NCBI GenBank assembly: GCA_902524955.1
Contig: CABZEY010000002.1
Coordinates: 1-56,390, forward strand
Direction: 5' to 3'
From: an uncultured Pelagibacteraceae bacterium
GTDB taxonomy: Bacteria; Pseudomonadota; Alphaproteobacteria; Pelagibacterales; Pelagibacteraceae
Length of the DNA: 56,390 nucleotides
Shown: positions 4,069-53,319 of the stretch, piece by piece
How the letters are laid out: each line of letters starts with the position of its first letter
Position numbering within the stretch: the first letter of the stretch is position 1
Notes under the pieces: generated by a model
What the model was told of the DNA's origin: nothing
Database searches by the model: none
What the model saw: the letters and a program-made list of their open reading frames with translations, nothing else
Translations under genes and position numbers: made by a program

Positions 4069-6714
4069 ATGTCTACGTTTAAGTCATATAACCACAAATA
4101 TATTGAACATCAAATTTATAAATATTGGGAAAAAAATAATTGTTTTAAGCCTAAAAAAAATAAAAATAAAAAATATTTTTCTATAGTTATACCCCCGCCA
4201 AATGTGACTGGAAGTTTGCACATGGGACATGCTTTAAACAATTCTATTCAGGATTTATTAGTTAGACATAATAGAAACAAAGGCCTGGAAACATTATGGC
4301 AACCTGGAACTGACCATGCTGGTATAGCAACGCAATTAGTTGTTGAAAAACAACTTAATGAAAAGGGAATTTCTAGAAAAGATCTTGGAAGAGAAAAATT
4401 TCTTAAAGAGGTATGGAAGTGGAAAGAGAAGTCTGGAGGTATAATAACTGATCAGCTTAAGAAACTTGGATCATCTTGTGATTGGTCTAGAGATAGATTT
4501 ACAATGGATAAGGGTTTATCTAAAGCAGTACTAAAAGTATTTGTCGACTTATATAAAAAAAAATTAATTTATAAAGATTTAAAATTAACAAATTGGGATA
4601 CTAAACTACAAACTGCCATTTCAGATTTAGAAGTTGATCAAAAAGACGTAAGAGGAAAACTTTATTATATTAAATATAAATTAGTAGAAAGCGATCAAAA
4701 TATTATTATTGCAACTACAAGGCCTGAAACTATGTTTGGAGATACCGCAATTGCAGTACATCCAAAAGATGAAAGATATAAAGATTTAGTATCTAAAGAA
4801 GTTATTATACCTATATCAAATAGAAAGATAAAAATTATTACTGATGATTATGCAGATCCAAACCAAGGCTCGGGAGTGGTCAAGATTACTCCTGCTCATG
4901 ATTTTAACGATTATCTAGTTGGAAAAAGAAATAAATTAGGCTTGATAAATATACTAAATAAGGACGGAACCTTAAATGGGAATGTACCGAGTAATTATCA
5001 AAATATTGATCGATTGGATGCAAGAAAGAAATTAATATCTGAATTGGATCAAAAAGATTATCTAGATAAAATTGAAGATATCAATCATACTATTCCTTAC
5101 GGGGATAGATCAAATTCAGTCATTGAACCACTATTAACCGAACAATGGTTTGTTGACGCAAAAAAACTATCTAAAGAAGCAATCAAACAGGTTAAGAAAA
5201 AGAAAACAAATTTCTTCCCAGATAATTGGAAAAAAACTTATTTTCAATGGATGCAAAATATAGAACCCTGGTGTATTTCTAGACAATTATGGTGGGGTCA
5301 TCAAATTCCAGCGTGGTACACAGAGGAAGGAAAAATTATTGTTGCTGAAAATATTAAGCAAGCAAAGAATATTGCTAAAAAGAAATTTAAAAAAGAAGTT
5401 AATTTGAAACAAGACCCCGATGTTCTTGATACTTGGTTTTCTTCAGCTCTTTGGCCCTTCGCAACTCTAGGTTGGCCAAATGATAATTCTTATGAATTAA
5501 AGAGATTTTACAAAACATCTGTATTGGTTACTGGATTCGACATTATATTTTTTTGGGTTGCTAGAATGATGATGATGGGACTTTATTTTATGAAAGAGGT
5601 TCCATTTGAGAATGTATATGTGCATGCTTTGGTTAGAGATGAAAAAGGTCAAAAAATGTCTAAATCAAAAGGCAACGTAATTGATCCTCTAACAATCATA
5701 AATCAATTTGGTGCCGATGCTCTAAGGTTTACTCTTATCTCGATGTCGTCTCCAGGTAGAGATGTAAAATTATCGTTAGATAGGGTGAAAGGTTATAGAA
5801 ATTTTATAACAAAAATTTGGAATACTTTTACTTATTGCGAAATAAATAATGTTTTTAAATTAAAAAAAATAAAATTGGCTAATATTAAAATACCAGCTAA
5901 TCAATGGATAATTGCAACATTGAATTTGTATAAACAAAAAATTATTAAAAATATTAATGAATATCGCTTTGATGAGGCAGCTAAAAACATTTATTCCTAT
6001 ATTTGGAATTATTTTTGCGATTGGTATATTGAGTTTTCTAAACCATTATTAAACTCAAAAAATAATCAAGTAATAGAAGAAACCAAAAATATTTTACTGT
6101 ACGTTCAAAGAGAAAATCTTTCGATTTTACATGCATTTATTCCATTTGTGACTGAGGAACTTTGGGCTTTGACCAAATTTAGAAAAATGGAAAAAACAGA
6201 TCTGGTTAATTTTAATTTTAAAAAAGACCATAAATTAAAAAATTCCAGAGGTATAAAAGATATTGATTTTATAATAAATTTTATAACTGATTTAAGATCA
6301 ATAAAAGCAAAATTAAATATTTCACCTGGTAATTTTGTTGACCTAAATATTGATGAATTACCAAAAAAAAATCAGAAAATAATTTATAATAATGAGCTGA
6401 TAATTAAAAAAATAGGTAGAATAAAAAACTTTAATCTTAAAGAAGTTAAATCCAAAATCGCAAAAGTTATTTTAGCCAACAACAAAATATCTATTTTTTT
6501 TGGTGACGATGTTGATTTAGATCAACAAATTTTGATACTTAATAAAAAGGTTGTGACATTGCAAAGTCAAATAAATAATTCAGAAAATAAACTTCAAAAT
6601 GATAACTTTATAAAAAAAGCGCCTAAAAATATTATTAATCAGGAAAAAAATCTTTTAGAAAATAATAAAAACGAGTATAAAAACCTTTCGGAGATAATAA
6701 ATAGTTTAAAATGA
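4069..6714 (+). CDS. valS: Valyl-tRNA synthetase
   Basis: An 881-residue class Ia aminoacyl-tRNA synthetase that charges tRNA-Val and edits misactivated threonine. The HIGH signature is HMGH at residues 51-54 after PPPNVTGSL, and KMSKS is at residues 529-533. The editing (CP1) domain lies between them, including [34 protein letters not shown] precedes the second half of the catalytic core. The C-terminal stretch (residues about 810-881) is Asn/Lys/Gln-rich and looks like the ValRS coiled coil. The stop overlaps the ilvD ATG in ATGA, so charging of valine and its synthesis are translationally coupled in one operon, an apt pairing. Confidence 0.97.
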
Positions 6715-8426
6715 AAGTAGATAAATCAAAATTACCAAGTAGACATACTACAGTTGGACCTGAGAGAGCTCCTCATAGATCTTTTTATTATGCAATGAAT
6801 TTAACCGAGACGGATGTTGCAAAGCCTTTTGTTGGTGTTGTTTCTACTTGGAATGAGGCGGCTCCTTGTAATATTGCATTAATGAGACAGGCCCAAAGCG
6901 TGAAGAAGGGTGTCAGTCAAAACATGGGAACTCCTAGAGAGTTTTGTACTATTACAGTAACTGATGGAATTGCTATGGGACATGAAGGTATGAAATCTTC
7001 TCTTATATCAAGAGAAGTAATAGCAGACTCAACTGAATTAACTGTTAGAGGTCATTGCTATGATGCTTTAGTTGGTTTAGCGGGATGTGATAAGTCTTTG
7101 CCAGGTCTGATGATGGCAATGTGTAGACTAAATGTACCAAGTATATTTATGTATGGTGGATCAATATTACCAGGCAAATTTAAAGGTAAGGATGTTACAG
7201 TTGTAGATGTATATGAAGCTGTGGGTATGCATGAAGCAGGTAAAATGTCCGATGAAGACTTGAGAGAATTAGAATTAGCTGCATGCCCATCGGCAGGGGC
7301 ATGTGGTGGACAATTTACTGCAAATACAATGGCATGTGTCTCAGAGGCAATAGGTTTAGCTCTACCTTATTCTTCAGGAACTCCTGCACCTTATGAAGAA
7401 AGAGATAAATACGCTTTGGAGAGTGGTATGCAGGTTATGGAGCTATTAAAGCGAAAGATTAGACCCAGAGATATAGTTACGATTGAAGCTTTAAAAAATG
7501 CAGCTGTTATTGTTGCCGCAACAGGCGGTTCTACTAATGCAGCGCTTCATTTGCCAGCTATTGCTAACGAATGCGGAATTAAGTTTGATATTATGGAAGT
7601 GGCAGAAATTTTTAAAAAAACTCCTTATCTTGCAGATTTAAAACCTGGAGGAAAATATGTGGCTAAAGATATGTTTGAAGCTGGAGGCGTCCCCATGTTA
7701 TTAAAAACTCTACTAGATGGCGGTTTTATTAACGGTGATTGTTTAACAGTTACAGGGAAATCGATGGCAGAGAATTTAAAGAATGTGAAATTTAATGACA
7801 ATCAAGATGTTATAAGACCTTATAGCAACCCAATAACCAAAACTGGTGGGGTTGTAGGCTTAAAAGGAAACCTAGCAGAAGGTGGCGCCATTGTTAAAGT
7901 AGCTGGTATGAAAAGATTAAATTTTAAAGGTAATGCCAGATGTTTTGATTGCGAGGAAGATGCTTTTAAAGCTGTAAAAGAAAAAAAATATAAAGAGGGT
8001 GATGTTATAATTATTCGTTACGAAGGACCCAAAGGTGGTCCGGGAATGAGAGAAATGCTTTCGACCACAGCAGCTATTTATGGCCAGGGTATGGGCGAAA
8101 AAGTTGCTTTAATTACTGATGGTAGATTTTCTGGAGCTACTCGAGGTTTTTGCATTGGTCATGTATCTCCGGAGGCGTATGTTGGTGGAATGATTGGATT
8201 ATTGAAAGATGGCGATGAAATAGAAATTGATGCTGAAAAAGGCAGTATATCTGTAAAATTATCAGATGATGAAATCCAAAAGAGAAAGTCTCAGTGGAAA
8301 CCAAAAGACTCTAATTTTGAAAGTGGTACGTTATGGAAGTATGCCCAAAGTGTAGGTGATGCAACTAATGGCGCAGTTACACATCCAGGCGGGTTTAAAG
8401 AGAAAAAAATATACGCTGATATATAG
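6711..8426 (+). CDS. ilvD: Dihydroxy-acid dehydratase
   Basis: This 571-residue Fe-S dehydratase converts 2,3-dihydroxy-isovalerate and -methylvalerate to the 2-oxo acids of valine and isoleucine synthesis. Family blocks are seen at [19 protein letters not shown] (cluster Cys near residue 126), [19 protein letters not shown] (Cys near 199), and the C-terminal [19 protein letters not shown] and HVSPEA. It belongs to the shorter IlvD type of about 560-570 residues rather than the 616-residue E. coli type; the short type often carries a 2Fe-2S cluster, but cluster type cannot be read from sequence alone. It is the second gene of valS-ilvD-manC. Its protein is notably less Lys/Asn-rich than its neighbours, consistent with a highly expressed, conserved enzyme. 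Confidence 0.97.
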
Positions 8427-13784: not shown

Positions 13785-14680
13785 TACCAGCTATATTTGG
13801 TTTGAAAGGCTATTCCCTTACTAAAAAGGAAATTAATTTCATCAAAAATAATATGATATTTGGGTTTATTATATTTAAAAGAAATATTTTAAATTTTTCA
13901 CAATTACGCATTTTAATTAACCATTTAAAAAAATTGTCATTAAATAATCCTATAATAATGATAGATCATGAAGGGGGTAGGGTAAATAGATTTTCAAATT
14001 TATTTTCTCAACGAAGTCTCTCGGCAAAATATTTTGGAGAATTATATTGTAAAGATAAAAAAAAATTCTTCAAAATTGCAAGATTTTTTGTAAATTTTAA
14101 TAGTAGAATTTTCAATTTTTTAGGAATCAATACTGTTGCATACCCTGTTTTAGATTTAAAATATAAAAAAACCCATCATGTAATAGGCGATAGATCTTTT
14201 TCAAACGATCCAAATATAGTTAAAAAAATTTCCAAAGTATTTATAAAAGAATACCAGGAAAGAGGTATAAATTGTATATCAAAACATGTGCCCGGCCATG
14301 GTCTATCAGTAGTGGATAGTCATTACGACCTTCCTGTAGTTAAAGAAACTTATAATTATCTAACAAAAAATGATTTTTCATGTTTTAAAAACATTAAATC
14401 TAAATTTATGATGACTGCTCATATCAATTTCTCATCAATAGATAAAAAAATAGCTACATATTCAAAAAAAATAAACTTCATTATTAAAAATAAACTTAAT
14501 TTTAAAGGAATGATTATGACAGACGATATTTGTATGAAGGCACTTAAAGAAAATTTAGTTAATCGAACCCTGCAACCATTAATTGCAGGTTATGATATTA
14601 TTTTGCATTGTAACGGTAATATTAATGAAATGGAAAAAATAGTAAGTATTATTAAAAAATGGAAGAATCAAAAAAAATAA
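13760..14680 (+). CDS. nagZ: Beta-N-acetylhexosaminidase (NagZ, GH3)
   Basis: A 306-residue cytoplasmic GH3 glycosidase that removes GlcNAc from anhydro-muropeptides in cell-wall recycling. Seen are DHEGGRVNRF at residues 69-78 (usually DQEGGRV), the flexible His loop KHVPGHGLSVVDSHYDLP near 174, and MTDDICMKAL near 252-261 containing the Asp nucleophile. The start is TTG at 13760, supported by AGGAG at 13747-13751 eight bases upstream; no ATG is close. It overlaps the preceding small gene by 25 bp and scpA by 22 bp. GH3 NagZ is short-form as usual. The substrates fit the murein-cleaving mltB and dacA products encoded downstream. Confidence 0.93.
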   Translation: MESSKDKIIPAIFGLKGYSLTKKEINFIKNNMIFGFIIFKRNILNFSQLRILINHLKKLSLNNPIIMIDHEGGRVNRFSNLFSQRSLSAKYFGELYCKDKKKFFKIARFFVNFNSRIFNFLGINTVAYPVLDLKYKKTHHVIGDRSFSNDPNIVKKISKVFIKEYQERGINCISKHVPGHGLSVVDSHYDLPVVKETYNYLTKNDFSCFKNIKSKFMMTAHINFSSIDKKIATYSKKINFIIKNKLNFKGMIMTDDICMKALKENLVNRTLQPLIAGYDIILHCNGNINEMEKIVSIIKKWKNQKK

Positions 14681-27209: not shown

Positions 27210-28120
27210 AATTTAATTTTATTTAAAGCGTTATTTTTGAATAGATTTGCTTCTTGTATATATCTTCTAACCATCTGAGTTGTTTTGTGGCCTGTCATAG
27301 CCATAATACTTCTTTCATCAGCCCCTGTTTCAGCAGTAGAGGTTGCAAATCCCGATCTCAAACTGTGGCCAGCATATTTTTTATGATCAAGACCGGCAAT
27401 AAGAGCATATTTTTTTATAATTAGTGCAACAGATTTATCTGAAATTTTAAATATTCTTCCACTATCAATTTTGGCATAATTTATCCATTCCTTCAGCGAT
27501 ATAACAGGGCAAAATTCTCTATTTGCAAAGTAGGGTATAGCCTTGATCATCCCTATACCTATTTGATCTGTCTTTGATTTTTTAATATTAATTTTTACGC
27601 CCTCATTAACAAAATCAACATCATCATATTCAATAGAAATCAGTTCTGATCTTCTAAATCCACCAGCAAAACCTATTAAAATTAATGCTTTATTTTGAAC
27701 CTTCTTAAACTCATTTTTTTCGTCTGTTATAGCCTGTATAATTAATTTTAAATCATCTACTAGTATTGGTTTTTTTGACATTTGTTTTACGCCTAATTTT
27801 CTTTTAATACCCATTAAATTTTCTGAAATGATAGGATGTTTTGTATCAATATAATGCCCTTTGAGCTTATGTATAACTTTGATTGATGCGAGTCTTCTTT
27901 TTAATGTACTAAACTTACTAGAAGAGCTAAGATGAGTTAGGTAAAGCGCTACAATTTTTGGATCTGTTGGCAGCGAGCAAAAGTTATTTGTTCTACAAAA
28001 ATTTGAAAAATCATTAAAATCAGCTTGATAAGCTCTAAGAGTATTATGAGCTTTCGAATTTTTTAAATTCTTTACTGTCTCTAATTCAAGGTTTTTAACA
28101 TTTGTAACTATATTGTTCAT
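27206..28120 (-). CDS. Tyrosine-type site-specific recombinase/integrase
   Basis: A 304-residue phage-integrase-family recombinase. The N-terminal SAM-like core-binding domain spans about residues 15-110 (HNTLRAYQADFNDFSNFC). The catalytic set is complete: R156 in GGFRRSEL, a beta-hairpin Lys at 181-183 (KSKTDQ), H252-x-x-R255 (AGHSLRSGFAT), H278 (MTGHKTT) and nucleophile Y287 (VRRYIQEAN). It is neither clearly XerC nor XerD. The ATG (28120-28118) has only a weak ribosome-binding site, GGAA, that lies inside the palindrome at 28124-28150. A TTGACA promoter lies just upstream. Its 3' end overlaps the glycosyltransferase stop. It is likely active or recently active. Confidence 0.93.
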   Translation of the reverse strand: MNNIVTNVKNLELETVKNLKNSKAHNTLRAYQADFNDFSNFCRTNNFCSLPTDPKIVALYLTHLSSSSKFSTLKRRLASIKVIHKLKGHYIDTKHPIISENLMGIKRKLGVKQMSKKPILVDDLKLIIQAITDEKNEFKKVQNKALILIGFAGGFRRSELISIEYDDVDFVNEGVKINIKKSKTDQIGIGMIKAIPYFANREFCPVISLKEWINYAKIDSGRIFKISDKSVALIIKKYALIAGLDHKKYAGHSLRSGFATSTAETGADERSIMAMTGHKTTQMVRRYIQEANLFKNNALNKIKF

Positions 28121-28123
28121 AAT

Positions 28124-28150
28124 TTTCCGATAACCATTAATTATCGGAAA
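28124..28150. repeat. Perfect 10-7-10 palindrome at the recombinase promoter
   Basis: TTTCCGATAA (28124-28133), spacer CCATTAA, and TTATCGGAAA (28141-28150) are exact inverted arms. It lies 3 bp before the recombinase ATG and overlaps its -10 box and probable transcription start. Arm and spacer sizes fit a tyrosine-recombinase core site (about 9-13 bp arms around a 6-8 bp spacer) or a dimeric repressor operator. In mRNA it would form a hairpin that hides the ribosome-binding site. Confidence 0.75.
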
Positions 28151-28176
28151 TATATATTAGATGAAATTATTGTCAA
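28149..28176 (-). promoter_or_regulatory. Candidate promoter of the recombinase gene
   Basis: On the minus strand a consensus -35 TTGACA (28176-28171) is followed after 16 bp by TATATT (28154-28149). Transcription would start near 28142, inside the palindrome. The exact -35 match is unusual in a genome whose promoters are hard to see. Confidence 0.55.
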
Positions 28177-39472: not shown

Positions 39473-41020
39473 TTAAATTTTTATTTCCTGACCTTTTTTT
39501 GATTTAATATATACAGATACAAATAGTCTTCCTAAAATAAATGTTGTAAACAAAGAAGTGATTATTCCAATTGCTAGTGTTACTGCAAATCCTTTTATCG
39601 GACCACTGCCAATAAAATATAGTACAAAAGCAGCAATTAAAGTGGTGATATTTGCATCTAATAGAGTTGTTAAAACTCTTTTATATCCATTGTCAAATGC
39701 AATCAAAATATTATCTTCAATTTTTAATTCTTCTTTAATTCTCTCATAAATTAATACATTCGCATCTACAGCCATTCCTACTGTTAATATTATTCCCGCT
39801 ATCCCCGGCAGAGTTAAAGTTGCTTCAACTATAGTCAAAATACTAATTAATAATATTAAATTAATAAAAAGGGATATGTTAGCAAATATACCAAAGATTT
39901 TATAATTATAAAAAATATATAAAATTACTAAAATAAAACCGATAATTAATGATAATATTCCTTTATCTATACTTTCTTGACCGAGATCTGGTCCAACAGT
40001 TCTTTCTTCAATAATTGACATAGGAGCAGGTAAAGCGCCTGAGCGTAAAATAATTGATAAATTATTTGCTTCTTCAACGCTAAAACTACCTGATATTTGA
40101 CCGTTTCCAGTTGTAATGGCGTCTCGAACTACAGGAGCACTAACAACTTTATCATCAATAATTATCGCAAGTCTTCTGCCAATATTATTTTTTGTTGCAT
40201 AAGCAAATTTTTTGGCTCCAAAACCATCTAATTTAAAATTAACAACTGATGAATTGTTAAGGTTATCAAATCCTGGTTGTGCATCTGTTAAATGCTCACC
40301 AGATAAAACTAGTTTTTTTTGCACATTGTAAGTCTCAAGATTATTTTTTGATTGAAGTTTTTCATAACTTTGTTTTTTAGCATCGTTATCTGCTATAAAC
40401 CTGAATGTTAATTTTGCCGTTGTACCAATTATTTCTTTAATTCTTTTAGGATTTTTAATACCAGGAAGTTCAATTAAGATTCTCTCCTCACCTTGTGCAA
40501 TTATAGTAGGCTCCCTTGTACCAAGTTCATCTATTCTGGAACGAATAATTTCAAGAGATTGCTCCATTGCATTTTTTTTAATTCTTTTTTGGTAACTTTC
40601 ACTTAGATTAATTTTAATTTGATTATTCAAAAATTGATAATTTAGCTCCCTATTACTCTCATCAATATTTTCGTTGATTTTATTATCATTCAATACTTTT
40701 AAAATATTATCTTTATTTTCAATATTAAATTCAAAGGAGATGGTCGAATTCTTTATAATAAAATTATTATAATTAATTCTTTCAGACCTTAATTTTTTTT
40801 TTAATTCAAAAGACTTTGTTTCAAGTTTATCTTTAAATAAAGGCTTGGAGTTTACCTCTAGTAATAAATATGATCCACCTTGTAGATCCAAGCCTAAAAC
40901 AACTTTTTTTTTAGGTAAAAATGAAACTTCAGATTTAAACACATTTGGCAAAAAAAATATAAATCCGAATATTATAAGAGAAATAATAGTAAAAATTTTT
41001 AACTTAGAAAATTGTAACAC
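39473..41020 (-). CDS. secD: Protein translocase subunit SecD
   Basis: A 515-residue partner of SecF. It has LGLDLQGGSYLLLEV at the start of the large periplasmic P1 region, EIIRSRIDELGTREPTI, LRSGALPAPMSIIEERTVGP before the membrane core, and AGIILTVGMAVDANVLIYERIKEEL, the proton-path segment with conserved Asp. Six transmembrane helices follow the usual pattern. It lies 6 bp downstream of yajC. Confidence 0.96.
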   Translation of the reverse strand: MLQFSKLKIFTIISLIIFGFIFFLPNVFKSEVSFLPKKKVVLGLDLQGGSYLLLEVNSKPLFKDKLETKSFELKKKLRSERINYNNFIIKNSTISFEFNIENKDNILKVLNDNKINENIDESNRELNYQFLNNQIKINLSESYQKRIKKNAMEQSLEIIRSRIDELGTREPTIIAQGEERILIELPGIKNPKRIKEIIGTTAKLTFRFIADNDAKKQSYEKLQSKNNLETYNVQKKLVLSGEHLTDAQPGFDNLNNSSVVNFKLDGFGAKKFAYATKNNIGRRLAIIIDDKVVSAPVVRDAITTGNGQISGSFSVEEANNLSIILRSGALPAPMSIIEERTVGPDLGQESIDKGILSLIIGFILVILYIFYNYKIFGIFANISLFINLILLISILTIVEATLTLPGIAGIILTVGMAVDANVLIYERIKEELKIEDNILIAFDNGYKRVLTTLLDANITTLIAAFVLYFIGSGPIKGFAVTLAIGIITSLFTTFILGRLFVSVYIKSKKGQEIKI

Positions 41021-52381: not shown

Positions 52382-53319
52382 ATCTTATATTTTTTTTTAA
52401 CTTTTTTAAAAAATTTCTGAGAATAATGTAAGGCAAAAGTTTCTGTTTCATATTCCTTGTTTCTTAATTTTACTCCAGAAACTAAATCACCGTCAGTAAC
52501 ACCTGATGAGCAAAAAATTACATCACCTTTTACAAGGTCATTCAAGTAATATTTTTTTTCAAAATCTTTAATTCCAAGATTTGTTGCTCTTTTAATTTCA
52601 TCATCATCTTGAATTTTTAATCTAGCTTGAAATTGTCCACCCAGACATTTTATTGCAGATGCTGCCAATACTCCTTCTGGGGCACCCCCTATACCGAGAT
52701 ACATATCAACATCTGAAGTCTCTAAAGCAGAAAATATTGATCCAGCAACATCGCCATCTGATATTAGTTTTAATTTTGCACCTAAAGATTTAATATCTTC
52801 AATAAAGTGTTTATGCCTTTCTCTGTCTAGTAAACAAATACAAATCTCATCTACACTTTTATTTTTGGCTTTTGCTAAATTTTTAATATTGTTTTTCACA
52901 TCTTCATCTAGATCAACAATATTTTCTGGAAGACCATGACCTACCGAAATTTTATCCATATATGTGTCCGGAGCTTGTAATAGCATTCCCTCTTCTGAAA
53001 TTGATATTACTGAAATAGCGTTTGGCTGATTATTTGCTGCTAATTTTGTTCCATCTAGAGGATCAACAGCTATATCAATTCTTGGATTTTTTGATTTACC
53101 AAGTGTCTCCCCAATATAAAGCATTGGAGCTTCATCCATCTCCCCTTCCCCAATAACGACCTTACCACAAATATTTAGTTCATTTAATTTTTGCCTCATT
53201 GCATCTACTGCAGCTTGGTCAGCGGCATTTTTATCTCCTTTGCCTTTTAACAATGAAGATTTATAAGCTGCAACGGCTGCAACATCGATAATTTGATCTA
53301 ATAAATTTGGTTCCAACAT
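52378..53319 (-). CDS. glpX: Fructose-1,6-bisphosphatase class II (GlpX)
   Basis: A 313-residue class II FBPase that acts in gluconeogenesis. Seen are VVIGEGEMDEAPMLYIGE, AVDPLDGTKLAANNQPNAIS (Li-sensitive phosphatase motif DPLDGT), VGHGLPE, LISDGDVAGSI, YLGIGGAPEGVLAASAIKCL and IFCSSGVTDGDLVSGV. It starts at the hom stop (TAATG) and is coupled to recJ. hom-glpX-recJ is a common alphaproteobacterial order. Confidence 0.96.
   Translation of the reverse strand: MLEPNLLDQIIDVAAVAAYKSSLLKGKGDKNAADQAAVDAMRQKLNELNICGKVVIGEGEMDEAPMLYIGETLGKSKNPRIDIAVDPLDGTKLAANNQPNAISVISISEEGMLLQAPDTYMDKISVGHGLPENIVDLDEDVKNNIKNLAKAKNKSVDEICICLLDRERHKHFIEDIKSLGAKLKLISDGDVAGSIFSALETSDVDMYLGIGGAPEGVLAASAIKCLGGQFQARLKIQDDDEIKRATNLGIKDFEKKYYLNDLVKGDVIFCSSGVTDGDLVSGVKLRNKEYETETFALHYSQKFFKKVKKKYKI

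Follow-up and report, generated by a model that had tools for sequence, protein, structure and literature searches.

Immediately before the start codon of a tyrosine recombinase gene from an uncultured Pelagibacteraceae bacterium lies a short perfect palindrome, which raises the question of whether it serves the enzyme as a recombination substrate, controls the gene, or does both. Within the window (the whole stretch of 56,390 nucleotides analyzed here), the plus strand reads TTTCCGATAA (28124-28133), CCATTAA (28134-28140) and TTATCGGAAA (28141-28150), bearing out the original prediction of two exact 10-bp arms with a 7-bp spacer, 3 bp from the recombinase ATG (complement of 28118-28120). The palindrome alone is little better than chance, as the whole window holds three perfect 10-bp-arm palindromes with a spacer of 3-12 bp and at least three G+C per arm, against 0.5 expected from Markov shuffles; the striking part is its conservation across SAR11. 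We propose that this non-coding element of about 28 bp, with inverted arms around a short centre (10-7-10 bp), is very probably the dif site of a single-recombinase Xer system that has gone unrecognised in the Pelagibacteraceae (SAR11). Its features are collected in Table 1.

Table 1. Location of the site, its recombinase gene and associated elements in the window.
Feature	Position	Strand	Remarks
Single Xer-like (Cre-like fold) tyrosine recombinase, 304 aa	27206..28120	minus	PF00589
dif-like recombination site (putative)	28124..28150	minus	10-bp arms, 7-bp spacer; single copy where found, arms covary between clades
Invariant 17-bp core GATAATTAATGGTTATC	28129..28145	minus	99.3% identity, 104 unique loci
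Asymmetric central region TTAATGG (gene strand)	28134..28140	minus	expected strand-exchange region
Probable -10 box TATATT	28149..28154 (read 28154 to 28149)	minus	placed by 16-bp spacer from -35
-35 box TTGACA of recombinase promoter	28171..28176 (read 28176 to 28171)	minus	TTGAC in 104/104 unique loci
Cumulative GC-skew maximum in window (replication terminus)	30043		1.9 kb from site
KOPS-like octamer GGGNAGGG	13975..13982	plus	aimed at site
KOPS-like octamer GGGNAGGG	53143..53150	minus	aimed at site from opposite side

The palindrome was present, linked to the recombinase gene, at all 125 scorable SAR11 loci; homologues whose start codon has no inverted repeat beside it were looked for, and every scorable homologue in the SAR11 family proved to have the site. 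Identity across 104 unique loci is 99.3% for the 17-bp core, its asymmetric 7-bp spacer included, as against 46% at -70 to -50 upstream and 65% downstream, the gene start included. Most of the 76 distinct sites have TTAATGG as spacer, and the variants are limited to TTAATTG, TTTATGG and a few others. Strand exchange would call for a spacer that is both fixed and asymmetric, whereas a plain operator would not. The arms come in two types, A (TTTCCGATAA/TTATCGGAAA) and B (ATTACTAAYGATAA/TTATCAATAGTAAT), which have a GATAA-N7-TTATC core in common. In the second SAR11 clade, clade B, the site takes the form ATTACTAAYGATAA-TTAATKG-TTATCAATAGTAAT, both arms being altered around an unchanged core, and the arms extend, imperfectly, to 14 bp. 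A genome search that allowed up to three mismatches found the A-type site in exactly one copy in each of the 73 genomes with a match, and the reversed pattern used as control had no matches. Nor does the window contain a second copy of the core with up to two mismatches. A 17-bp stretch at 39941 (GATAATTAATGATAATA) differs from the core at three positions, has no second arm and is probably due to chance.

The enzyme encoded beside the site is a single, chromosomal tyrosine recombinase that retains all catalytic residues. It combines PF00589 with an N-terminal SAM-like domain, and residues R156, K183, H252, R255, H278 and Y287, to which we assign a catalytic role from the known R-K-H-R-H-Y pattern, occupy invariant columns in an alignment of 28 family members. 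The gene was detected in 230 of 297 family genomes, including 111 of 127 near-complete genomes, and in all 11 single-contig genomes examined; it occurs once per genome, one draft with two matches being the exception. It encodes the sole PF00589 tyrosine recombinase in nine of 12 genomes, and the remaining three have one extra tyrosine recombinase each, none of them in common. An AlphaFold2 model (pLDDT 82, pTM 0.59) had its best structural match in Cre (TM 0.70) and also matched XerH (TM 0.66). The protein could not be assigned to XerC/XerD, since the best XerD-model score of about 82 bits compares with a cut-off of 329.6 and both members of the classical XerCD/dif pair are absent, nor to XerS, on whose model it scored 53 bits vs a cut-off of 267. 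Sixteen near-complete drafts, all of them multi-contig, have neither the recombinase nor a XerD-like gene (G012, G019, G028, G048, G069, G083, G171, G175, G197, G215, G221, G225, G255, G259, G283 and G287), possibly reflecting an assembly gap at the terminus or a true loss.

The location of the site gives strong support to the role as crossover site that was among those originally predicted, and specifies it as a chromosomal dif, with one site per chromosome at the terminus. In six closed genomes from four genera (G005, G009, G003, G040, G022 and G077; skew computed over 400 kb around the site), the distance from the site to the cumulative GC-skew maximum is 0.6-2.4 kb, and dnaA is 0.42-0.45 of the genome away, roughly opposite the site. 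All 12 genomes examined encode FtsK with a gamma domain. Within 200 kb of the site in five genomes, 31 copies of the E. coli-type KOPS GGGNAGGG, a motif fixed beforehand, are oriented toward the site and none away from it; a sixth genome contributed 1:0, giving a total of 32:0. With 42 permutations as control, this KOPS was the most polar of these same-composition patterns. Since an unrestricted scan of octamer polarity was dominated by A-rich words that track strand skew, we limited the polarity count to this pre-defined motif.

From these elements we propose the following sequence of events. RecA recombination would join sister chromosomes into a dimer, and FtsK, steered by the terminus-pointing KOPS, would pump DNA until two copies of the site meet at the septum. 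On each copy the inverted arms would be occupied by two recombinase protomers, and the resulting tetramer, presumably activated by FtsK, would cleave the DNA and swap strands across the 7-bp central region, thereby resolving the dimer into monomers. Expression data from cultured SAR11 are compatible with this role. In Candidatus Pelagibacter ubique, the mRNA of SAR11_1019, annotated as xerD and presumably the same gene as the one studied here, rises 7.6-8.5-fold with recA upon sulphur starvation (PMC5069961), and both xerD and recA increase in light (PMC3090418); a rise along with recA fits a need to resolve dimers made by RecA.

How the family came to possess this system is best approached through its relatives. 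Six genomes from another family of the same order contain two XerD-model matches each (307-322 and 244-258 bits), which we read as a XerC/XerD-like pair, and a match to the SAR11 recombinase was absent from the three of these six that were looked at. Searches with a profile of the SAR11 recombinase picked up sporadic relatives in other parts of the class (E 1e-54 to 1e-71), and tblastn with the recombinase returned 1200 plasmid records. The best among the matches listed outside SAR11 shares 43% identity and is borne on the Alicyclobacillus plasmid pAACI01, where the site reads GTCCGATAA-GTGATTG-TTATCGGAC. Relatives with 27-43% identity often have a site of the CCGATAA-N6/7-TTATCGG type near the gene; near the genes of plasmid-borne and other relatives it often takes the form (G/T)TCCGATAA-N6/7-TTATCGGA(A/C). 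With up to two mismatches, TTCCGATAA-N5/8-TTATCGGAA occurs at six of 11 class-level loci and three of 10 plasmid loci, where by our own estimate such a match would arise by chance at about 1 in 3000 loci. In the stretches examined, three of the 11 class-level loci had no recognisable site and two more a weak one, and the site was missing or weak at about half of the 10 plasmid loci. Among individual plasmids, one from Rhizobium carries two sites, and five loci from alphaproteobacteria and Alicyclobacillus (L325, L327, L329, L331 and L333) have a CCGATAA-type or CCAATAA-type palindrome near the relative. Sites near the genes of relatives make the link between gene and site independent of SAR11, and recombinase and site together look like a widespread plasmid module for which we found no published description. 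Since the relatives often carry a site of the same design, it is probable that a plasmid-type recombinase-plus-site module took the place of XerCD, the direction of the exchange being our reading of this comparison, which points to the recruitment of a mobile module by the chromosome.

The main competing explanation concerns the promoter. The consensus TTGACA -35 box that had been noted for the recombinase gene is present, and the reported overlap of arm and -10 box amounts to 2 bp shared between the outer arm and TATATT. In 102 of the 104 unique loci, TTGAC precedes the core by 31-34 bp. The transcription start deduced from this arrangement falls inside the upstream arm, so that the site covers the expected start and bound recombinase would block its own promoter. 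It is therefore plausible that the site doubles as an operator for its own gene, and that the recombinase, when seated on it, probably limits its own synthesis. The same fixed distance and overlap would also be accounted for if the palindrome were purely an autoregulatory operator, bound by the recombinase or another repressor, and its location at the terminus were incidental. We regard this as unlikely, because a pure operator does not need an invariant asymmetric spacer and has no reason to lie at most 2.4 kb from the skew maximum in six genomes. In addition, in plasmid relatives the distance between site and gene reaches about 0.95 kb and the site may even follow the gene; a pure operator would also leave the lone recombinase without a site.

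A tyrosine recombinase adjoining an inverted repeat, with relatives common on plasmids, could also mark the place where a mobile element attaches or a phase-variable switch inverts. This reading is very improbable: the site occurs once per genome where found, with no second copy that could bound a mobile or invertible segment, the gene is near-universal in the family, and no element boundaries are apparent at this terminus location. The crossover role originally envisaged thus does not extend to the junction of an integrating or inverting element. Finally, although RNA of the full palindrome could fold into a 10-bp hairpin beside the ATG, an RNA switch hiding the ribosome-binding site of the recombinase mRNA is highly improbable, as a transcript started in the upstream arm would retain little of the hairpin's 5' half, a conserved Shine-Dalgarno sequence to be sequestered is found in none of the 104 loci, and similar sites accompany phage terminase genes and, at no fixed distance, the genes of relatives. 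The related claim that the palindrome contains the only Shine-Dalgarno-like bases is weak, for AGGA, GGAG, GAGG and AAGG are absent between site and ATG in all 104 unique loci, and clade-B sites lack GGAA in this region.

Sites resembling the proposed dif are also present in viruses. The core pattern had matches in 29 viral contigs, and TTCCGATAA-N5/8-TTATCGGAA was found in at least 120 IMG/VR viral contigs. When 123 site-bearing viral contigs were examined, 57 had a terminase relative 313-1157 bp from the site and 14 encoded a recombinase relative; a B-like site lay within about 60 bp of 32 of 118 viral sites. One viral contig (L406, at 6523-7560) has its recombinase relative about 110 bp from the site. 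Among cultured pelagiphages, HTVC100P and HTVC035P carry B and A sites adjacent to each other, HTVC106P has an A site accompanied by a weaker, B-like site, and EXVC021P has a B site. None of these stretches, which lie near terL, is annotated. In shuffled controls, no A site was matched at up to three mismatches and no B site at up to five. The sites of these four phages (L222, L226, L223 and L225, respectively) are at about position 1470-1565. In the stretch read, HTVC010P, HTVC024P, HTVC028P and EXVC029P had no convincing site. The spacers of the cultured phages are unlike that of the host, and integration is thus not an obvious use; the phage sites may possibly serve in multimer resolution, integration or as decoys. 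A terminase relative was detected in six of the 297 family genomes; the stretches read around it in five of these six had neither a SAR11-type site nor a recombinase close by, and so gave no sign of a prophage at dif. Taken together, one scenario is that a Pelagibacteraceae ancestor lost XerC/XerD and substituted a plasmid-type module with the site in its own promoter, making dif an operator as well, and that pelagiphages evolved both site types by the terminase to use the host recombinase in one of these three ways. In our judgement this scenario is about evenly balanced between being right and being wrong.

The proposed system shares features with several known ones. Like XerC/XerD and dif, it comprises a site of about 28 bp with ATAA...TTAT inner arms at the terminus, FtsK-gamma and the KOPS GGGNAGGG; unlike them, it has neither XerC nor XerD, uses one enzyme on symmetric arms, and has a centre of 7 bp instead of the 6 bp of E. 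coli dif. Cre and plasmid tyrosine recombinases provide the best fold match and the nearest listed non-SAR11 relative, but the SAR11 enzyme is encoded by a chromosomal core gene and its site is terminus-located. The loxP site consists of 13-bp arms and an 8-bp spacer. XerH/difH of Helicobacter and Campylobacter likewise pairs one recombinase, to which the SAR11 model shows the structural similarity given above, with a linked site; however, XerH has 354-362 aa vs 304, difH arms are imperfect, and a PDB sequence search with the SAR11 recombinase had no XerH entry among its significant matches. In XerS/difSL of streptococci and lactococci, one recombinase again adjoins its site, and the left arm of difSL, TTTCCGAAAA (PMC5357621), is one base off TTTCCGATAA, whereas difSL has unequal arms around an 11-bp centre in a total of 31 bp, and XerS has 356 aa. 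XerL/dif of the Legionellales (PMC9765430), which we compared by description only, is alike in being a single-recombinase system in an order believed to be Xer-less, with perfect dyad arms of 10-12 bp and a site near the skew maximum; over 400 kb separate dif from xerL in L. pneumophila, while in SAR11 site and gene touch. XerL is also encoded on a plasmid of Coxiella burnetii.

XerL shows that a single-recombinase system with perfect arms has escaped notice before (PMC9765430). Pelagibacter ubique had been stated to be without dif/Xer and was used as evidence that genome streamlining can drop this machinery (Carnoy & Roten 2009, PMC2731167). In the open literature searched, outside of which most subscription papers lie, there was no report of a SAR11 dif, and a search for the site sequence gave unrelated matches only. 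Our data counter the 2009 view and indicate that SAR11, among the most abundant groups of organisms on Earth, kept a system of this kind, with a different enzyme and a different site that are close to plasmid-borne genes. The site would provide a terminus marker for SAR11 genomes, and the recombinase/site pair is ready for testing. Moreover, the two sister families would make a clear example of how such a system is replaced, and the site may open a new angle on pelagiphages.
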